From: Winogradskyella arenosi
GTDB taxonomy: Bacteria; Bacteroidota; Bacteroidia; Flavobacteriales; Flavobacteriaceae
Reading direction: 5' to 3'
DNA: 64,000 bases
Assembly (NCBI RefSeq): GCF_003337305.1
Contig: NZ_QPJO01000001.1
Location: 186,001-250,000, forward strand
Shown: positions 367 to 10,859 of the stretch, piece after piece
Layout: each line of letters opens with the position of its first letter
How positions within the stretch are numbered: position 1 is the stretch's first letter
Notes under the pieces: model-generated
What the model was told of the DNA's origin: nothing
Seen by the model: only the letters and a program-made list of their open reading frames with translations
Databases searched by the model: none
Made by a program: the position numbers and the translations under genes

Positions 367-1206
367 TTATTCATGAAGTACCAAGAACGGAATATCCGTG
401 TGGTAACTGATTTTTTCTACTTTAGAATGAAATAAGATGCTTTGAAAATAATTTAAATTTTTAGCCACCATAACCATCATATCAATAGCCTTAGTTTCTA
501 CAAAGGTTTGTATGGCATCTTCGACCTTTCTATTCTCAATATAATCAAAACTAGGGTTATAAGCATCAAAATAAGCTTTAAAAATATCAATATTATTTAA
601 TTGTTCTACGCTTAATTCTATATCCTTTTTATGAATATGAAGCATGCGCAAATTAGCTTTTGATGTTTTTAAAACCTCGGATAGCGGCTCTAAGGTTTGC
701 AAATCATAAGACATATTAAAATCTGAAGGAAAGGCAATTTCTTTAAGTGGCCTATATGTGGCAGCCTCTGGAACCACTAAGGTGGTACACTTTACTTTTG
801 TAATAACATCACCGGTATTACTCCCTACTATATATTGCTTAAGACCAGACGCTCCTTTTGTCCCCATTACCAACACATCTATTTTCTGCTCTAAAACCTG
901 TTTTCTAATAGATTCTAGAAAGAACCCATATTCGGTTAGGGTAAAAAAGTGATGATTCTCGTTAATTTTTCCTTCGTCATTAAGCGTACTTAACACATTT
1001 GCTAAGCGTTGCTTAGAGGGTTTAACGTACAACTCTTCAATTTGGCTAGCCGTCGGTGTGGTACTACTATCCCCTGCCATAAAGCTATCCATAAGACAGA
1101 CATTTAAGAGGTAAAAATTACATTTTACGGCTTTGTAAAAATCTATCGCATACGAAATGGCGTTTAAAGAATTTTCGGAAAAATCTGTAGGTAATAAAAT
1201 ATTCAT
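367..1206 (-). CDS. Universal stress protein, two tandem UspA domains
   Basis: This 279-residue cytoplasmic protein has two UspA folds. The first opens with MNILLPTDFSENSLNAISYA and ends with a nucleotide-binding-like GTKGASGLKQYIVGSNTGDV segment followed by CTTLVVPE. The second starts near EIAFPSDFNMSYD and ends with TDIPFLVLHE, with a weaker glycine motif. An in-frame ATG exists at 1230, but the ATG at 1206 fits the family N-terminus, and a -7 promoter element lies at 1230-1237, so the upstream codon would sit inside the promoter. The protein probably supports stress or low-oxygen survival. The upstream receiver-CRP regulator gene and a TGA-type palindrome in the promoter suggest control by that regulator. 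Confidence 0.88.
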   Translation of the reverse strand: MNILLPTDFSENSLNAISYAIDFYKAVKCNFYLLNVCLMDSFMAGDSSTTPTASQIEELYVKPSKQRLANVLSTLNDEGKINENHHFFTLTEYGFFLESIRKQVLEQKIDVLVMGTKGASGLKQYIVGSNTGDVITKVKCTTLVVPEAATYRPLKEIAFPSDFNMSYDLQTLEPLSEVLKTSKANLRMLHIHKKDIELSVEQLNNIDIFKAYFDAYNPSFDYIENRKVEDAIQTFVETKAIDMMVMVAKNLNYFQSILFHSKVEKISYHTDIPFLVLHE

Positions 1207-1229: not shown

Positions 1230-1272
1230 CAAATCTAGACCTCTGCGTGGTCTTAAAATATGATATTCGTCA
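1230..1272 (-). promoter_or_regulatory. Promoter of usp with CRP/FNR-type palindrome
   Basis: On the minus strand TAGATTTG at 1230-1237 matches the Bacteroidota -7 consensus TAnnTTTG exactly, which predicts a start site near 1225 and a leader of about 18 nt. Upstream, 1261-1272 reads TGACGAATATCA on the minus strand, an imperfect TGA-N6-TCA palindrome followed by T. Its centre (1266.5) is 36.5 bp from the last G of the -7 element, so about -41 to -42 from the predicted start. That is the classical position for a CRP/FNR activator. Binding is inferred. Confidence 0.55.
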
Positions 1273-1296: not shown

Positions 1297-2349
1297 TTAC
1301 TGGATATCTTGTAACTTTTGTAAGTCTAGAACCTTGACCGTGCGGCCTTCCATTTCAATGATTCCTAATTTTTTAAAATCGGACATCGTTCTAATTAAGG
1401 TTTCTGTAGCAATACCTGCCACACTGGCTAAATCACTTCTAGAAATTCTAATAGGGTCTTCTGGTTTAGCATTTATTTTTTCAGCAAACCTAAGAATAGT
1501 AGCCGCAGTTTTGCGTTTTACAGAACTATAAGCCATCTGTAACAATTGATCTTTAACACCTGTAATGTTTTCGGAAAGCAACTGAATAATTTCTAAAGTG
1601 ATCTTATGATTTTTATCTAAGACCTCTTTTAATTCTGATTTAGACACCCCAACCATTTCCACATCTTTCATCGCTGTAGCACTCTCTTTATAGGGAATAT
1701 TTTGAGTAAATGAGGTATAGCCAAAAATATCGTCTTCCTTATGAAGTGCCGTAGTCAGTTCTTTTCCATTTTCATCATATTTAAAACACTTTACAACACC
1801 TTGTAGAATGAGATAAACATAATTAGAGTTCTGCCCTTCTTGATAAATGGTTTCATTTTTTCTGAACTTAAAAACCGTTCCGTTATCATCAAAAAAGTTC
1901 TTTAAATCATTTAAAGTTCTTAATTCTTCTTCATTGTTTTGTGGTTGTACTTGGTGCGCCTCGCGTTCCTCTTTTAAAATAGCGGCTTTGGCAATTCGGC
2001 TTTCAATAGCACTTGTTAACTCTTCCTCACTAAAAGGTTTGGTAATGTAATCATCAGCACCGAGATCCATTCCTTTTCTAACATCGTGACGCTCTGTTTT
2101 GGCTGATAAAAAAATGAAGGGTATAAATTTCGTTGTACTGTCTTTAGATAGTGCTTCTAATACACCATACCCATCAAGTATAGGCATCATAATATCACAA
2201 ACAATAACGTCTGGTAATGATTGCTTTGCCGTTTCTACCCCTAAGGCGCCATTAGCAGCCGTGATAACATTAAAGTCTGAAAGCTCTAATAATTCTGCTG
2301 TATTTTCTCTTAATACGGTATCGTCTTCTATCAGTAAAACTGTTTTCAT
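1297..2349 (-). CDS. Response regulator fused to CRP/FNR-type DNA-binding module
   Basis: The 350-residue protein has a receiver domain at about 1-120 with the acidic pocket ED at 8-9, phospho-acceptor D52 (VIVCDIMMP) and K104-P105. A cyclic-nucleotide-binding-like beta roll follows at about 150-270, then a CRP-type winged helix at about 275-345. The recognition helix TETLIRT keeps E316 and R320 with the same spacing as the Glu and Arg of Crp and Fnr that read TGA half-sites. There is no N-terminal cysteine cluster of Fnr type, so the input is probably phosphorylation. The gene overlaps the upstream histidine kinase by 4 bp (ATGA), indicating translational coupling. The fusion puts roles usually split between a FixJ-like and a FixK-like protein into one chain. 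Targets are inferred. Confidence 0.9.
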   Translation of the reverse strand: MKTVLLIEDDTVLRENTAELLELSDFNVITAANGALGVETAKQSLPDVIVCDIMMPILDGYGVLEALSKDSTTKFIPFIFLSAKTERHDVRKGMDLGADDYITKPFSEEELTSAIESRIAKAAILKEEREAHQVQPQNNEEELRTLNDLKNFFDDNGTVFKFRKNETIYQEGQNSNYVYLILQGVVKCFKYDENGKELTTALHKEDDIFGYTSFTQNIPYKESATAMKDVEMVGVSKSELKEVLDKNHKITLEIIQLLSENITGVKDQLLQMAYSSVKRKTAATILRFAEKINAKPEDPIRISRSDLASVAGIATETLIRTMSDFKKLGIIEMEGRTVKVLDLQKLQDIQ

Positions 2350-3851
2350 AGCTGTGCTTTATTTGGTAATTCTATAATAAAAGTGGAGCCTACATTCTCA
2401 ACACTTTCAAAAGTAATGCTTCCATTTAAATTTTCTAAATGGTCTTTCACAATGTTTAATCCTATTCCTGTGCCCTGCATTAATAAGGCATTTTCCGCTC
2501 TAAAATAACGGTTAAAAATATTTTTCTGATCTACAAGCGGAATCCCAATACCATTGTCTATAACCTTAAAGGTGGTTTTATGGGCATCTTGAAAAATTTC
2601 TATATCTATAATAGCATGTTCTGAAGAATATTTAATGGCATTATAAATTAGGTTAGATAAGGATAATTCAACAATTTTCTCATCTTGGTATAAGCTAATG
2701 TCATCTACATTTTCAGGATAATTAATATGCTGGCCATCTTTAAGCAACATATTAGCGTTATAAATTACTTCATTTAAGACCTTACTCAACTTAAAGGTGC
2801 TAAAATTATAATTAATTTTACCCTTCTCAAGTTTCTCTACAGATAAGAAATCTGTTAAAATAGAATTGAGATATTGTACCTTATCGGTAATGGTTCTTAA
2901 ATGCTTTTCTCTATTCTCTTGTTGTTCTGTCAATTTATATTTACTCAATAATATAGTCGAGGTTAAAATACCGCTTAAAGGGGTTTTAAACTCATGAGAA
3001 ACCATAGAAAGAAACTTCGTTTTTAAATCGTTTAGCTCCTTTTCTGCTGCCAAAGCTGTTTTAAGTTCTTCGGTTCTAACCTCTACAGTCTTTTCTAAAG
3101 TTTGGGTATAATTTTTTTGCTCTGTAATGTCTAAAATTATAGCCACATAAACATCATTCCCTCCCAACTTAGAATGTTGCAAATGCACACTCGCTGGATA
3201 CCTTGTTCCGGATTTACGTTGATGGACCGCTTCAAACTCAATTTTATCAACCTCACCTTCACGTAACCCTTTTATTTTTTTTCTGAAATCCTCTTCCGTA
3301 AACTCAGGCTTTATATCTAAAGGCGTCATTTTATAAAGCTCATCCATGGTATAGCCCAGGTTTTTTTGAGCTTCGTAATTAACACTCACAAATAATAAAC
3401 TATGCGCATCAAACACATAGATTTCATTTAGGGATTCTAAGATAATATTGGTTAAATGGTTCCTTTCTTGCTCTAGTCTTTTTCGTTCGGTGATATCAAT
3501 AACCAAGGCCATGATATATTTTTGATCAAAAAGTATAAACGGATTAAGACTGGCTTCTATTGGAAAAATACTCCCATCTTTTTTAGCACCGTGGATGTCA
3601 CGACCGTGACCCATACTACGCTTCTTGTTATCTTTTACAAAACCTTTAAAATGCCTGCCGTGCTCTACATGATAATTACGAGGAATTAAAACATTCAAAG
3701 GCTGATTTGTTAACTCGTTTTCACCATAACCAAACATCTGTTCTCCAGCTTTGTTGACTTTTACAATGGTTTGCTTATCATTAACAATCACCACACCTTC
3801 TGAAACAGAGTCTAATAGAATATTAAAAATTTCTTGATCTTCTGGAAACAT
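2346..3851 (-). CDS. Soluble PAS-PAS histidine kinase with FixL-like first PAS
   Basis: The 501-residue protein has no transmembrane segment. PAS1 (about 5-122) contains LIPRNYHVEH and GHGRDIHGAKKDG; H64 and R84 are 20 residues apart, matching the haem-ligand His200 and the Arg220 of Bradyrhizobium FixL in motif and spacing. PAS2 spans about 132-245 and a short coiled linker follows. HisKA carries H286 in SMVSHEFKTPLSG. The ATPase domain has an N box (LSNLIYNAIKYSS), G1 (VIDNGIGIP) and G2 (GTGIGLNIV). It presumably phosphorylates the coupled receiver-CRP protein encoded immediately downstream. Many PAS domains carry similar residues without haem, so oxygen sensing is a hypothesis. A weak -7-like TATCTTTA lies at 3877-3884 on the minus strand. 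Confidence 0.92.
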   Translation of the reverse strand: MFPEDQEIFNILLDSVSEGVVIVNDKQTIVKVNKAGEQMFGYGENELTNQPLNVLIPRNYHVEHGRHFKGFVKDNKKRSMGHGRDIHGAKKDGSIFPIEASLNPFILFDQKYIMALVIDITERKRLEQERNHLTNIILESLNEIYVFDAHSLLFVSVNYEAQKNLGYTMDELYKMTPLDIKPEFTEEDFRKKIKGLREGEVDKIEFEAVHQRKSGTRYPASVHLQHSKLGGNDVYVAIILDITEQKNYTQTLEKTVEVRTEELKTALAAEKELNDLKTKFLSMVSHEFKTPLSGILTSTILLSKYKLTEQQENREKHLRTITDKVQYLNSILTDFLSVEKLEKGKINYNFSTFKLSKVLNEVIYNANMLLKDGQHINYPENVDDISLYQDEKIVELSLSNLIYNAIKYSSEHAIIDIEIFQDAHKTTFKVIDNGIGIPLVDQKNIFNRYFRAENALLMQGTGIGLNIVKDHLENLNGSITFESVENVGSTFIIELPNKAQL

Positions 3852-4242
3852 CTTTTAAAATTGAGGTTTAAAAAGCTAAAGATAAAAATCCTTAAGAATT
3901 TATTAGCATCAAAACGGGGAAGATTTGGGGCCTTTTGCGCATTAAAAATATAACTACAAAAAATGATAACGAAAAAAAACGCACTCCCCATTCTTCCTAC
4001 CTGAACCCTAGTTCTTAAAGTTCTAGAGTAAAATCCTATCAACCTCTAGCCGTCAAACGCCATGATAAGGCCTTAACACTGATCTATATCATTATTTACG
4101 GCCCTAAAAAATTGTAATTTGCAAAATAGCTTTTGCCTATAAACCTAAGAGATCGTTGTATAAGTTGCGTATTTCAGAGAAGCCTTAGCTATAAAACCCG
4201 CCTATAAAAGCGGTACCTTACTTATTTTAAACTATAAGATTT
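3852..4242. promoter_or_regulatory. Divergent intergenic region with CRP/FNR-like site
   Basis: This 391-bp region separates the kinase operon from cardiolipin synthase. At 4080-4091 it contains TGATCTATATCA, a perfect TGAT-N4-ATCA palindrome followed by T, close to the Fnr consensus but without its outer T and A. A -7-like TAATTTG (one base short in the spacer) lies at 4115-4121, whose last G is 35.5 bp from the palindrome centre. This gives the cls gene the same geometry as the usp promoter. The leader to the cls ATG is about 115 nt. A short open frame at 3812-4042 on the minus strand looks non-coding. Confidence 0.5.
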
Positions 4243-5673
4243 ATGATGTTTGCGCTCATTGCATATGTTCTAATTGCATTTGTCTTAATGGGGCGATTAC
4301 TACTTTACGGGGTAAGACCAACCAAAACCTTAGCTTGGTTACTCGCTATTTTTACAATCCCCGTTGGCGGTATGCTTCTCTATTTTATTTTAGGTCGAAA
4401 TAGAAAAAAGAATAAATTTTATCATTTTAAAAAAAATGAAACTATTTTTGGTTATCTTCAAAAGTATAACGCTCTTCATCAATCCGAAGCGCCTACAACT
4501 CCAATTCCTCCGCTTTTAAAACAACATCATCGTTTGGCCCAAATGATGACTAAAAGTTCTGGGGCTTTCCCTACCACAGGCAATTTCTTACAACCCTTAA
4601 AAAATGGCCCAGCAACCTTTGACGCCATTTTTAAAACCTTAGAAAAAGCAAGAACGTTTATACATATTCAATATTATATTTTTGAAGAAGGCGATTTAGC
4701 CAACCGATTTAGAAGCTTATTGATACAGAAAGCCATAGAAGGCGTAGAAGTCAGATTACTTTATGATGCTTTAGGCAGCCGCGTTTTGAGTAAAAAATTC
4801 ATTAAAAGTTTAAAAACGGAAGGCATTCAGGTTTATGGTTTTTTACCGATGAGATTGGGCCGGTTCCTTTCTTCTGTTAATTATAGAAATCACAGAAAAA
4901 TTGTGATCATAGATGGACTCTATGGTTTTACCGGTGGTATTAATGTATCCGATAAATACATTAACGGAGATCCCAATTTAGGACCGTGGTACGATATGCA
5001 TTTGCAAATGGAAGGCCCTGTTATTCATAGTCTACAAGCCGTTTTCGCTAGAGATTGGAGCTTTGCGAGTGGTACAGAAGAATTATTAAACACCAAATAT
5101 TTTGCTCCACAAATTCGTGCAGGACAAAGTACCGCTCAAGTTGTATCTAGTGGCCCTGATTCTGATTTTTCTTCCATACAATACCTCTATCTCTCTTTAA
5201 TTAATAAGGCAAAAAACTACGTTTACATTATTAACCCCTATATTATTCCCGGAGAAGCACTATTAGAAACCTTAAAAATTGCCGCCTTAAGTGGTGTGGA
5301 TGTCCGACTGCTGCTCTCAGCCAATTCTGATAGCCTTTTAGTGAAATGGACCGTACGTTCTAATTTTGAAAATCTCCTTGCAGCCGGCGTAAAAATCTAT
5401 TTATATCCCGATGGCTTTTTACATAGCAAAGTGATGCTTTCTGATGACGAATTGTCTACCATAGGCACTGCCAATTTAGACATCAGAAGTTTTGAACAGA
5501 ATTACGAAGTCAATGTTTTAATGTATGATAAGACGATTACAACCACATTAAAGCACGATTTTTTAAACGACTGTAAAAAAAGCCAACAATTAAACTACCA
5601 TCAACACTTACAACGTTCTAAACTAGAACGCCTAAAAGAAGGCACCGCTAAAGTATTTAGCCCAATTTTATAA
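4243..5673 (+). CDS. cls: Cardiolipin synthase, phospholipase D family
   Basis: The 476-residue protein has two N-terminal membrane helices (about 1-21 and 30-50) followed by a cytoplasmic or membrane-surface PLD body. The two HKD motifs are HRKIVIID with H217 and HSKVMLSDDELSTIGTANLD with H394. Length and layout match bacterial ClsA-type enzymes, which join phosphatidylglycerol molecules (or phosphatidylglycerol and phosphatidylethanolamine) to make cardiolipin. The start ATG-ATG at 4243 places the first helix correctly. It lies divergent from the PAS kinase operon, and a CRP/FNR-like palindrome sits at the activator position of its promoter, which suggests that membrane lipid remodelling is linked to that two-component system. 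A patatin gene follows but has its own promoter. Confidence 0.92.
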   Translation: MMFALIAYVLIAFVLMGRLLLYGVRPTKTLAWLLAIFTIPVGGMLLYFILGRNRKKNKFYHFKKNETIFGYLQKYNALHQSEAPTTPIPPLLKQHHRLAQMMTKSSGAFPTTGNFLQPLKNGPATFDAIFKTLEKARTFIHIQYYIFEEGDLANRFRSLLIQKAIEGVEVRLLYDALGSRVLSKKFIKSLKTEGIQVYGFLPMRLGRFLSSVNYRNHRKIVIIDGLYGFTGGINVSDKYINGDPNLGPWYDMHLQMEGPVIHSLQAVFARDWSFASGTEELLNTKYFAPQIRAGQSTAQVVSSGPDSDFSSIQYLYLSLINKAKNYVYIINPYIIPGEALLETLKIAALSGVDVRLLLSANSDSLLVKWTVRSNFENLLAAGVKIYLYPDGFLHSKVMLSDDELSTIGTANLDIRSFEQNYEVNVLMYDKTITTTLKHDFLNDCKKSQQLNYHQHLQRSKLERLKEGTAKVFSPIL

Positions 5674-5687
5674 TGAATTTAAAATCA

Positions 5688-5720
5688 TTTGGTTGCATTT
5701 AAAACATCGTTGTACATTTG
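5688..5720 (+). promoter_or_regulatory. Bacteroidota-type promoter of the small patatin gene
   Basis: TTTG at 5688-5691 and TACATTTG at 5713-5720 match both the -33 and -7 consensus elements with a 21-bp spacer. The predicted start site near 5725 lies upstream of the ATG at 5741 but downstream of an earlier in-frame ATG at 5693. This decides the start of the patatin gene. Confidence 0.7.
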
Positions 5721-5740
5721 TAGGACTTATACTAAAAAGC

Positions 5741-6523
5741 ATGAATTTAGGATTAGTATTATCTGGAGGAGGTGCTAGAGGCGCCGCACATATAGGGACC
5801 ATTAAAGCCTTAGAAGAGGCCGGCATTTACCCAACACACCTTTCCGGAACAAGCTCAGGCGCCATCGTTGGCGCTCTCTATGCCGCTGGTGTGCATTGGT
5901 CTGAAATTTTAAACTTCTTTAAAACCATTCCCCTTTTTAACACCAAGCGCTTTGCAAGACGAAAACCGGGATTTTTAAATTCTGATAACTTTTATGACGA
6001 CTTAAGTGCGTATTTTCCTGAAGACAGTTTTGAAGCCTTAAAAAAACCTTTGTTTATTCCTGCTACTAATATTGTAGATGGCACTTCAAAAATGTTTAGT
6101 AAAGGGCAATTAATTAAGCCCATTATAGCTTCGGCCTCTTTTCCTGGAGTCTTTACCCCTACTGAAATTAATGGAAAGTTTTATGTTGATGGCGGCACCT
6201 TAAATAATTTCCCGGTTGAACCTCTAATAGAACCCTGCGATAAAATTGTAGGCGTTTATGTAAATCCTTTAAAAAAGGTAACCATGAAAGACCTAAAACA
6301 TTCTTTTGCCATTGTAGAGCGTTCCTATAAAATTATGGTTGCTGCAGAATCCATGTCTAAATTCTCACATTGCGATATGGTTATCAGTCCACAAGAATTA
6401 GTGCATTACACCACCTTTGGTATGAACCATGTAGATGCTATATTTAAATTAGGATACGACACCACAAAACGGGCCTTAGAAGAAGGACAATTAAACCTCA
6501 ACTCCGTAGGTAAACCAAGTTAA
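5741..6523 (+). CDS. Patatin-like phospholipase, small cytoplasmic type
   Basis: The 260-residue protein starts MNLGLVLSGGGARGAAHIG, giving the oxyanion-hole glycine motif at once. The nucleophile is S38 in GTSSG and the catalytic aspartate is D150 in VDGGTLNN, so the Ser-Asp dyad of patatin lipases is complete. The length fits the RssA/NTE-core group without added domains and there is no signal peptide. Substrates are probably phospholipid acyl chains. An upstream in-frame ATG at 5693 is rejected because the promoter -7 element lies after it and the domain begins at the ATG at 5741. The cardiolipin synthase gene directly upstream suggests a shared theme of phospholipid turnover, but transcription appears separate. 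Confidence 0.88.
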   Translation: MNLGLVLSGGGARGAAHIGTIKALEEAGIYPTHLSGTSSGAIVGALYAAGVHWSEILNFFKTIPLFNTKRFARRKPGFLNSDNFYDDLSAYFPEDSFEALKKPLFIPATNIVDGTSKMFSKGQLIKPIIASASFPGVFTPTEINGKFYVDGGTLNNFPVEPLIEPCDKIVGVYVNPLKKVTMKDLKHSFAIVERSYKIMVAAESMSKFSHCDMVISPQELVHYTTFGMNHVDAIFKLGYDTTKRALEEGQLNLNSVGKPS

Positions 6524-8621: not shown

Positions 8622-10859
8622 CTAAAACCAAAATCCTAGATTAAAAAACCAGTAGCTCTTTCCGGTTTCTGGAGAAAATGTATACTTCCCTTCTAGTGGG
8701 CCTAAAAAAGTTTCTAAGGAATAGCCTAAAGCATAGCCCGTATAATCAACCTTGCTAATAAACGCCCCGCTCTCAAAGATGCCATCATCAATATTGGCAT
8801 AGTTGGCCGCTAAGAGAATATGATGCTTCTTAAAAATTTCGTAATCTAAGGTCAATGTTCCTTTTACAAAACTGTCTCCCGATAGTGCGAGGTAGTCATA
8901 ACCATAAAAGGAAGAGAAATTATTAATAAAATTATTGCCATAACCTCCTATGGCAAACCCTAACGTTTGTGTGGACATATCACCAATTTTAAAACCACCA
9001 TTGGCTTCAACCTTCATCGCTAATTTATCATTAAAACTAAAGGCATAACCCAAATCGGCCTTAGCTATAGAAAACTCTAAAAATTCATCATTAAAGCCCG
9101 ATGCATCTAGATACAGATGAAAACTACCGTTAAAATAAAATCCATTTTTAGGAAAATGGTAGTTGTCATAATTATCAAATTTTAGTGTTCCAAACAAACT
9201 AAAGTAATCCGTGTTTTCAAAGGTAATTTCGTCCTCCTGATTTTCACCTAAAATCGTTTCTGAAGTAATTTTAAGACGTTTATGCTCTGCCCCTAATCGC
9301 AAAGCAAAATCTTTTCTAAATATAGTTTGTAAATAAATCTGATTGGTAAAATCTGCAATCTCGGCATCAATTTTATTTAAACCCGTTAATAGCGGCGAGT
9401 CTTCATCTAAAGCTAAGCGTGGATTCACGTTTTTATTAAACTGATTATACCGCGATCTTAAACCTAAACTAATATAAAACCCTTTATCTATAAAGTAATC
9501 TAAATTATACCGGGAATGATCCCCTAAAATGACATCTAATGAGGCAATATCATTATTAAAGAGTAATTTTTTCTTGGTAAGATTGGCCAAGAGTGCACTT
9601 TTATAAAGGCCGTCATAATGCAAGCCAAGTCTTAAAAAAGTGGTCGTTTCAGACTCTACAATTTTACCTTTAAAATCGTACTCCATTTCATTTTCAGTAG
9701 GCTCTAAAAAATACCGAAAGGCATCAAAATTGTTGGTTGCAATAAGATTATTTATCCCTTCTCTAAAGTCTGAATAGCTAATTTTTTCATCGCCTTTAAA
9801 CTTTAAGCGCCCAATCATATAAGACCTGGTATAACGCTCGTTACCGTCTAAACTCACGGAGCGAATCTTTAAACTGTCTAGAATTTTAGCTTTTGGTCGC
9901 TCTACATAATGTGGTTTTTGCGCTTTAAGAGCTTTCAAGGATTCTAATTGTATGAGTGCCGCATTAGTACCATGAGAGATGATATCTTTTCCTTCATCAA
10001 AAGAAATAAGCGAAAAATCAGAAATATCAGGCTTAATATAGATGTCCGTTAAGTCGGCCTTCGTTTTCATGGCCTCGATGGTTCGGAAATTACTAATTTG
10101 CATTAAGATCTCTGGCGCCGATTTTAAAGCTTCCCGGTCTTTTAAAGCATCTTGTACATCTACACCAATAATAACATCCATGCCCTTGGCGCGTAATTCT
10201 TCAACAGGAAAATTATTGGTTACCCCACCATCTATTAAAATATTGCCATCAATCACTACGGGTTGAAACAAAGACGGTAAAGCCCCACTCGCCGCGACAG
10301 CCTCAGCCAATTTGCCTTTTTCCATTAAAAGGGATTCGCCAGTTTCCATATTAGTGGCCATGCAAAAAAATGGAATCGGTAATTTATTAAATTCTGAAAT
10401 ATCACTTACCGGCAGCAGTAACTGATACATTAAGTTATAGACATTTTGTCCGCGAGATAAAGCTGAAGGCAAGGCTATTTTAAAGTGATCAAAGGGGAGA
10501 TTAACCACGTATTTCTCTGTGTTTTCGCGCTCGTAAAATGATTTTGAGGCTCTTGGAAAATCATCATTAATTAAAATATCAAAATCTTGAGCTTCAAAAA
10601 TCGCTTCTAATTGTTTCCCAGAATAGCCTGAGGCATATAAAGAGCCAATAATAGCACCCATACTTGTGCCCGCCACATAATCGATATTAATTTCTAAGCT
10701 ATCAATGACTTTTAAAACGCCAATATGCGCGAAGCCTTTAGCCCCACCTCCACTTAACACCAAACCCACCTTGGGTTCTGAGGCGCGAGTATGTTCTTGA
10801 GCCTTTGCAGGAAAAAGCACCATTAAAAACAGGACTACTATAACAGGTGTTATTTTCAT
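8622..10859 (-). CDS. Patatin-like phospholipase fused to outer-membrane beta barrel (PlpD-like)
   Basis: The 745-residue precursor has a signal peptide (about 1-20, ending FPAKAQ) and a patatin domain at about 28-330 with LSGGGAKGFAHIG, nucleophile S66 in GTSMG and D210 in IDGGVTNNFP. A POTRA-like segment (about 335-395, containing IRSVSLDGNERYTRSYMIGRLKFK) leads to a C-terminal barrel with alternating aromatic strands that ends in WFFNLGFWF. The terminal phenylalanine is typical of barrel proteins inserted by Bam. The order patatin-POTRA-barrel is that of Pseudomonas PlpD (type Vd secretion). In Bacteroidota many such proteins are annotated only as patatin or BamA-like. The lipase domain may face the periplasm or the outside. 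It stands alone between convergent L25 and codirectional uvrC. Confidence 0.88.
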   Translation of the reverse strand: MKITPVIVVLFLMVLFPAKAQEHTRASEPKVGLVLSGGGAKGFAHIGVLKVIDSLEINIDYVAGTSMGAIIGSLYASGYSGKQLEAIFEAQDFDILINDDFPRASKSFYERENTEKYVVNLPFDHFKIALPSALSRGQNVYNLMYQLLLPVSDISEFNKLPIPFFCMATNMETGESLLMEKGKLAEAVAASGALPSLFQPVVIDGNILIDGGVTNNFPVEELRAKGMDVIIGVDVQDALKDREALKSAPEILMQISNFRTIEAMKTKADLTDIYIKPDISDFSLISFDEGKDIISHGTNAALIQLESLKALKAQKPHYVERPKAKILDSLKIRSVSLDGNERYTRSYMIGRLKFKGDEKISYSDFREGINNLIATNNFDAFRYFLEPTENEMEYDFKGKIVESETTTFLRLGLHYDGLYKSALLANLTKKKLLFNNDIASLDVILGDHSRYNLDYFIDKGFYISLGLRSRYNQFNKNVNPRLALDEDSPLLTGLNKIDAEIADFTNQIYLQTIFRKDFALRLGAEHKRLKITSETILGENQEDEITFENTDYFSLFGTLKFDNYDNYHFPKNGFYFNGSFHLYLDASGFNDEFLEFSIAKADLGYAFSFNDKLAMKVEANGGFKIGDMSTQTLGFAIGGYGNNFINNFSSFYGYDYLALSGDSFVKGTLTLDYEIFKKHHILLAANYANIDDGIFESGAFISKVDYTGYALGYSLETFLGPLEGKYTFSPETGKSYWFFNLGFWF

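Follow-up and report, generated by a model that had tools for sequence, protein, structure and literature searches.

In a 64,000-nucleotide (nt) stretch of the Winogradskyella arenosi genome (hereafter the window, to whose positions all coordinates refer), three genes on the minus strand follow one another in the order kinase, receiver-CRP, and usp. The first (2346..3851) encodes a sensor histidine kinase of 501 amino acids, in which Pfam matches above the cut-offs delimit PAS1, PAS2 (the PAS part matching as two PAS_9 stretches), HisKA, and HATPase_c. The second (1297..2349), whose start shares 4 nt with the kinase stop according to the open reading frame coordinates, encodes a fusion regulator of 350 amino acids (receiver-CRP) with Response_reg, cNMP_binding, and HTH_Crp_2 domains above the cut-offs. 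The third (367..1206, with the start set at an ATG) encodes a universal stress protein (Usp; Pfam match above the cut-off). PAS1, defined from a structural model, structural matches, and conservation, covers kinase residues 1–125 (3477..3851, minus strand) and includes H64 (codon at 3660–3662), H67, M80 (3612–3614), and R84 (3600–3602). Two boxes matching TGAY-N4-RTCA were found on the minus strand, TGACGAATATCA at 1261..1272 in the usp promoter, 55–66 nt 5′ of the usp ATG, and TGATATAGATCA at 4080..4091 upstream of the kinase gene and between it and a divergent gene. A first-pass annotation had located both the kinase and regulator reading frames, the 20-residue spacing of H64 and R84 as in FixL, D52 of the receiver, and E316 and R320 of the CRP module; translation confirmed His and Arg at kinase positions 64 and 84 and Asp, Glu, and Arg at regulator positions 52, 316, and 320, so that all of these were correct.

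We examined the conservation of this unit in 80 named loci, the best 80 of 514 confirmed relatives, which are the base of the locus counts out of 80, 79, or 78 given below; one locus (L080), whose kinase is cut off where its contig stops, was left out of the count of untruncated kinases. The top-scoring named relatives were Winogradskyella wichelsiae (86% identity) and W. undariae (85%). The kinase gene lay directly upstream of the receiver-CRP gene in 80/80 loci, including the fragmentary L080, and usp lay downstream in 78/80. PAS1 was present in all 79 untruncated kinases regardless of their length; its apparent absence from 5 of 30 kinases was an artefact of 1.5-kb flanks. The kinases of the unit range from 378 to 809 amino acids (L080 aside), PAS1 being constant while further domains before HisKA seem to come and go, and those of about 380–415 amino acids have room for PAS1 alone, as judged by length (length-variable kinases: L061, L063, L065, L066, L068, L082, L105–L107, and L112–L115). 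Among 149 Flavobacteriaceae genomes including that of W. arenosi, each from another genus, a receiver-CRP (E ≤ 1e-40; the cut-offs of the co-occurrence test below were chosen by us) was found in 66, of which 62 have the main form (at least 48% identity) and four have only a paralogue of 41–43% identity. A second, paralogous receiver-CRP (41–44% identity) occurs in several Flavobacteriaceae (L285–L290), and a clear PAS1 relative was seen near only some of their kinases. These results indicate that the kinase and the receiver-CRP form a real, conserved regulatory pair, which is probably important.

The receiver residues D9, D10, D52, S82, and K104, corresponding to the acidic pair, the phosphorylated Asp, the Ser/Thr, and the Lys, were invariant in 14 aligned receiver-CRPs. 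E316 and R320 of HTH_Crp_2, which we take to be the residues reading TGA half-sites, were also kept in 14/14. With its cNMP_binding fold, this Glu/Arg-bearing HTH_Crp domain, and TGAY-N4-RTCA boxes at its own operon, the regulator has the features of the CRP/Fnr family. The N-terminal cysteine cluster that holds the Fe-S centre in Fnr was not found in its translation, which has just two cysteines, Cys51 and one in the cNMP fold. Cyclic AMP (cAMP) is unlikely as the signal of the CRP part, the alignment having Tyr at both positions where CRP has the Glu and Arg that bind it. Besides the receiver-CRP gene, the W. arenosi genome has two further genes with a CRP helix-turn-helix above the cut-off, one of which encodes an Fnr homologue.

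To characterize the promoters of the unit, all spaced palindromes with four-base arms were counted in the named loci and compared with one shuffled set. The most frequent palindrome in the gap between receiver-CRP and usp was ATGA-N6-TCAT (68/78 loci; runner-up, 34; shuffled maximum, 7), and that upstream of the kinase gene was TGAT-N4-ATCA (50/79; runner-up, 30; shuffled maximum, 19). TGAY-N4-RTCA occurred 5′ of usp in 76/78 loci, mostly ca. 64 nt from the start (mononucleotide-shuffle mean, 0.55); at the kinase gene, 60/79 loci had it no more than 300 nt from the start (mean, 1.6); every promoter shuffle in this study preserves base content and not dinucleotides. The surroundings of the kinase box at 4080–4091 (AATGATATAGATCAGTG) are similar to AATGATATAAATCAGTT of several relatives, most of which have the box closer to the start. 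It could also serve the divergent gene, which is cardiolipin synthase-like; this gene and two nearby patatin-like genes (window 4243–6523 and 8622–10859) were named from their translations.

Elsewhere in the W. arenosi genome, five of 22 strict box sites were inspected. Three lie 5′ of respiratory or haem genes, namely between the fnr-like and ccoI-like ATPase genes, 5′ of ccoNO (cbb3 oxidase), and 5′ of hemN, which is followed by a Usp gene; the other two lie between two divergent genes with no evident link to respiration and inside an enolase-like gene. Since this genome also encodes an Fnr homologue, the role of the receiver-CRP was assessed by comparing other genomes. Fnr homologues were called at E ≤ 5.5e-42, the next matches being at ca. 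2e-37 and 35% identity; two of the weakest members (G020 and G043) match over residues 36–224 only, and the W. arenosi homologue scores 94 bits against an NCBIfam Fnr cut-off of 228. By this definition, 91 of the 149 family genomes have an Fnr homologue, and 116 have ccoNO. Among the 58 genomes lacking Fnr, ccoNO was found in 28 of the 30 with a receiver-CRP versus 1 of the 28 without (Fisher's exact test, 8e-13, not corrected for phylogeny). Altogether, 115 of the 116 ccoN genomes carry Fnr or the receiver-CRP; those with neither amount to a single genome (G048) that is 82% complete, too few to form a control group. Judging from these gene contents, the receiver-CRP and the Fnr homologue look like alternatives in the family.

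In the genomes with the receiver-CRP only, a box was found 248–348 nt before the ccoN start in 26/28 (shuffles, 0.9), upstream of hemN in 17 of 18 examined out of 23 (shuffles, 0.7; 58–69 nt in 16 of the 17), and at usp in 11 of 12 loci examined, the stretch of the twelfth containing no usp. The hemN exceptions were L271, with no box, and L272, with a box at 368 nt. The hemN box was found in neither of the only two genomes that have neither regulator. Of the 32 genomes with both regulators, 20 were examined and 19 had the ccoN box, one of them (L205) with a match at another distance; the stretch without a box (L199) comprises 345 bases and ends with its contig. The simplest reading of the co-occurrence and the boxes together is that the receiver-CRP can do what Fnr does. 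The base 5′ of the ccoN box was C in 18/26 receiver-CRP-only versus 5/31 Fnr genomes (L152–L211; Fisher's exact test, 1e-4, not corrected for phylogeny), a difference that may reflect adaptation of the box to its regulator. Both regulators are linked to the cbb3 genes in G061, G071, G110, G121, and G134, where the Fnr homologue gene lies ca. 1 kb past receiver-CRP and ccoNO about 4–6 kb off. On the same strand, hemN lies past receiver-CRP by ca. 1.0 kb in G040:C1, with usp between them, and by ca. 0.9 kb in G053:C4.

We then considered which signal PAS1 might perceive. H64 aligns with the proximal His of FixL and lies in a model helix (residues 58–74) corresponding to helix Fα, and its distance of 20 residues to R84 is that of the FixL chains. 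In the window and 79 relatives, H64, R78, and M80 were invariant (80/80), position 67 was occupied by His in 68 rows and by Tyr in 8, and position 84 was Arg in 71; at this level of conservation the H64/R84 pair is not a product of chance. The distal signature of FixL, HIIGIGR, is replaced by RSMGHGR in PAS1. Position 79 had no I, V, L, or M among the 78 of 80 rows shown, and position 82 was I or L in 6 of 73 rows shown. On these residues, PAS1 does not belong to the FixL type. In sequence, the solved chain closest to it is FixL (1d06, 8.7e-15), followed by the FG214 PAS (10jx, 1.1e-11) and DosP (4.1e-11). On plasmids, PAS domains encoded by Streptomyces and other organisms matched PAS1 better than FixL did (42% and 39% versus 32% identity). 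From 378 matching plasmid records, twelve PAS domains were retrieved, two of them FixL-type (one annotated as fixL); the His was kept in 12/12 and the Arg in 8/12, including six of the ten that are not FixL-type. Because the pair also occurs in PAS domains outside FixL and in other phyla, it is not diagnostic, and the idea that H64 and R84 alone denote a FixL haem pocket was ruled out. The first-pass annotation had taken this pair as the sign of a FixL-like PAS1, a reading unsupported on this ground and for lack of the distal isoleucines.

An AlphaFold model of PAS1 built from an alignment of 38 sequences had a predicted local distance difference test score (pLDDT) of 90.6. Its top structural match was the haem-binding PAS domain of FG214 (10jx; Z 18.2, root-mean-square deviation 1.7, 115 residues), followed by the PAS domain 3lyx (Z 16.9), FixL 1d06 (16.8), DosP (16.6), the flavin adenine dinucleotide (FAD)-binding PAS of NifL (15.8), and a LOV domain (15.0). 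Foldseek E-values of DosP, a LOV chimera, 10jx, and FixL were nearly tied, and the high rank of LOV domains means that the fold by itself does not show the cofactor. According to the accessible part of a preprint on FG214, His156 is the proximal and His175 the distal ligand, Met172 is a possible alternative, and the His159I variant is impaired (PMC13060918). By ungapped spacing, His156, His159, and Met172 fall on H64, H67, and M80 of PAS1, and an R-x-M-G motif is common to both. Position 82 of PAS1, next to the Gly83 on which His175 falls, is His in 28/80. In a survey of PAS domains, haem binding within the cluster of FixL and DosP is put down primarily to the Fα His (PMC10468136). Because FG214 is the closest structure and shares these residues, H64 is conserved, and the Fα His has this role in the survey, PAS1 is likely to bind haem, as far as sequence and model can tell. 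The sixth ligand is perhaps Met80 or His82, with Arg84 near bound O2. The earlier proposal of haem in PAS1 therefore stays an expectation, but a better founded one, now resting on the top structural match and the His/His/Met residues common to PAS1 and FG214 in place of the FixL residues.

Relatives of the fusion were also found outside the family. In a phylum sample of 296 genomes, 44 had a match; G421 matched over the receiver only, and the other 43 were in the same class. Forty regions were fetched, 34 from 32 genomes of this sample and six of the Flavobacteriaceae paralogue, and the PAS type of the adjacent kinase was taken from whichever of two queries matched at the lower E-value. It was FixL-type in 13 regions and of the window type in 18, including a doubtful one (L286) that lacks the His and is labelled "other" in the tree; no PAS was found in nine. 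Since some regions were picked for a known FixL-type PAS, 13 of 44 genomes gives a better share than 13 of 40. The FixL-type PAS of L292, which carries HIIGIGR, matched Bradyrhizobium FixL at 5e-35; the one in L304 matched at 4e-28. A kinase with a FixL-type PAS beside a homologous receiver-CRP shows that a FixL-to-CRP pair without FixJ exists in the relatives. hemN or cco genes lay inside the fetched stretch (ca. 11 kb) in 6/13 FixL-type and 4/18 window-type regions. A tree of 59 regulators, made with a quick method, required two changes between the PAS types and had two long branches. The His was kept by 14 of 16 kinases that are more distant and adjoin a fusion, and among the ten with a window-type PAS six kept the Arg. 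The compression of a FixL-FixJ-FixK-like cascade into two proteins, as first proposed, thus has its counterpart in these relatives, whereas the PAS1 of the window itself is not FixL-type.

Starting from the architecture, operon, boxes, and co-occurrence read from the sequences, we think it likely that the kinase and the receiver-CRP constitute a two-component low-oxygen switch with a haem-based PAS1, driving the boxes at usp, its own operon, ccoNO, and hemN. PAS1 would bind haem b through H64, with M80 or H82 as distal candidates and R84 close to the bound O2. Kinase activity would be set by O2 or the redox state, such that the kinase changes state at low oxygen or on reduction of the haem. 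The kinase would phosphorylate D52 of the receiver, and the phosphorylated receiver would free or dimerise the CRP module, which would bind TGAY-N4-RTCA boxes and raise expression of usp and its own operon. In many genomes, at least where Fnr is missing, it would also raise ccoNO and hemN. The scheme would parallel FixL-FixJ-FixK, a single protein standing for both FixJ and FixK. The suggestion of the first-pass annotation that the pair is a low-oxygen relay ending in a CRP/Fnr module on TGA half-sites agrees with the boxes found at hemN, ccoN, and usp, with the way Fnr is replaced across genomes, and with the FixL-type relatives; on present sequence data, this regulatory reading draws more support from comparative genomics than from the residues.

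Several observations weigh against this switch. On the sensor side, the distal isoleucines I215 and I218 of FixL correspond to Ser79 and His82, positions that are polar in most relatives, and the distal His175 of FG214 corresponds to Gly83; R84 is lost in 9/80 of the window and its relatives, and its equivalent is missing from 4/10 of the more distant window-type PAS domains. Three of the 38 rows in the model alignment are FixL-type and may pull the model towards FixL. On the promoter side, 19/79 kinase promoters, including those of the two nearest Winogradskyella, have no box inside 300 nt, and two receiver-CRP-only ccoN promoters (L157 and L167) have none. The number of boxes in the window is at chance (3 matches versus 2.83 expected), so that the evidence is the position of the boxes and not their number; counting across the W. 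arenosi genome was likewise of little use (strict box, 22 versus 18 in the control; loose box, 107 versus 63). The co-occurrence statistic ignores phylogeny, although each genome is from a different genus, and depends on analyst-chosen cut-offs.

The same side of the balance includes the Fnr homologue of W. arenosi, which adjoins ccoI/ccoNO, and the ccoN promoters of genomes with Fnr only, where the same box was present in all 12 examined of 55. The cbb3 boxes of W. arenosi may therefore be those of Fnr, and the share of the receiver-CRP and Fnr at each of them is something we can but infer. In its general form, this explanation holds that Fnr or another CRP-family protein, of which the W. arenosi genome has two candidates besides the receiver-CRP, controls the boxes and cbb3/hemN, and that the pair is a mere target or answers another signal, acting mainly on usp and itself. 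We regard it as unlikely. In the 28 genomes with ccoN and the receiver-CRP and no Fnr homologue, the boxes at ccoN, hemN, and usp are kept at the frequencies given above, and ccoN is nearly confined to genomes with one of the two regulators. These Fnr-less genomes weaken the claim of Fnr to the boxes, which may nonetheless hold for W. arenosi itself; the argument covers Fnr and not other CRP paralogues. A different objection accepts the control by low oxygen or redox state and takes PAS1 to be haem-free, with another ligand, a flavin- or quinone-linked redox response, or a structural role, and with PAS2 or another input providing the signal. It is consistent with the missing FixL isoleucines, with the closest plasmid-borne relatives, ahead of FixL, being PAS domains with no named cofactor, and with the NifL and LOV scores and the Foldseek near-tie. 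Against it stand the invariance of H64 and the His of 14/16 more distant kinases, the best structural match being a haem PAS that shares His/His/Met, the FixL-type PAS in kinases adjoining homologous regulators, and the retention of PAS1 in untruncated kinases of whatever length. A haem-free PAS1 is thus doubtful, yet a possibility to be taken seriously.

Compared with known systems, the haem-based switch resembles the FixL-FixJ-FixK cascade of rhizobia, which likewise joins a PAS kinase and a phosphorelay to a CRP/Fnr-family output acting on TGA half-sites at cbb3 and haem genes. It differs in that FixJ, a receiver with its own helix-turn-helix, and FixK are separate there, whereas here the adjacent partner is one receiver-cNMP-HTH_Crp_2 protein, and in its sensor domain, since PAS1 is of another type than that of FixL. 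With Fnr, which is present in many genera where the receiver-CRP is missing, the regulator shares its type of box and the Glu/Arg pair in the recognition helix, but it has a receiver in place of the N-terminal cysteine cluster. FG214 of Fimbriimonas ginsengisoli, which shares with PAS1 the motif and residues described above and differs at the distal ligand, is, as the available part of its description has it, a one-component HTH-PAS protein. In the hFixL-FxkR-FixK system of Rhizobium leguminosarum, as far as the accessible text describes it, a FixL variant signals to FixK through a regulator other than FixJ, but FxkR and FixK are separate proteins (PMC7888657). CRP/Fnr homologues of Flavobacteriales have been put in a carbon-sensing MalR group, and the available part of that report does not mention a receiver-CRP fusion (PMC8510549). 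In the literature searched, which mostly excludes subscription journals, no description of such a kinase/receiver-CRP pair was found, nor did the papers retrieved explain the sensing of low oxygen by aerobic Bacteroidota. The pair is a new variant of the FixL-FixJ-FixK theme and not a member of that system.

On a wider scale, it is an even call whether a two-protein oxygen relay of the Bacteroidia does the work of FixL-FixJ-FixK and replaces Fnr in many genera as the master regulator of cbb3 oxidase and haem synthesis, its sensor having been exchanged in evolution between two kinds of PAS, one FixL-type and one resembling those of FG214 and DosP, the latter with His and probably Met or His as haem ligands, while the kinase and regulator otherwise stayed constant. 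The natural exchange of two PAS types, one of them FixL-type, before homologous outputs would make the relation between haem ligation and kinase signalling directly testable. For the family, the receiver-CRP is a predicted master regulator with a box and targets, and the genera without Fnr would provide a clean system in which to test it.

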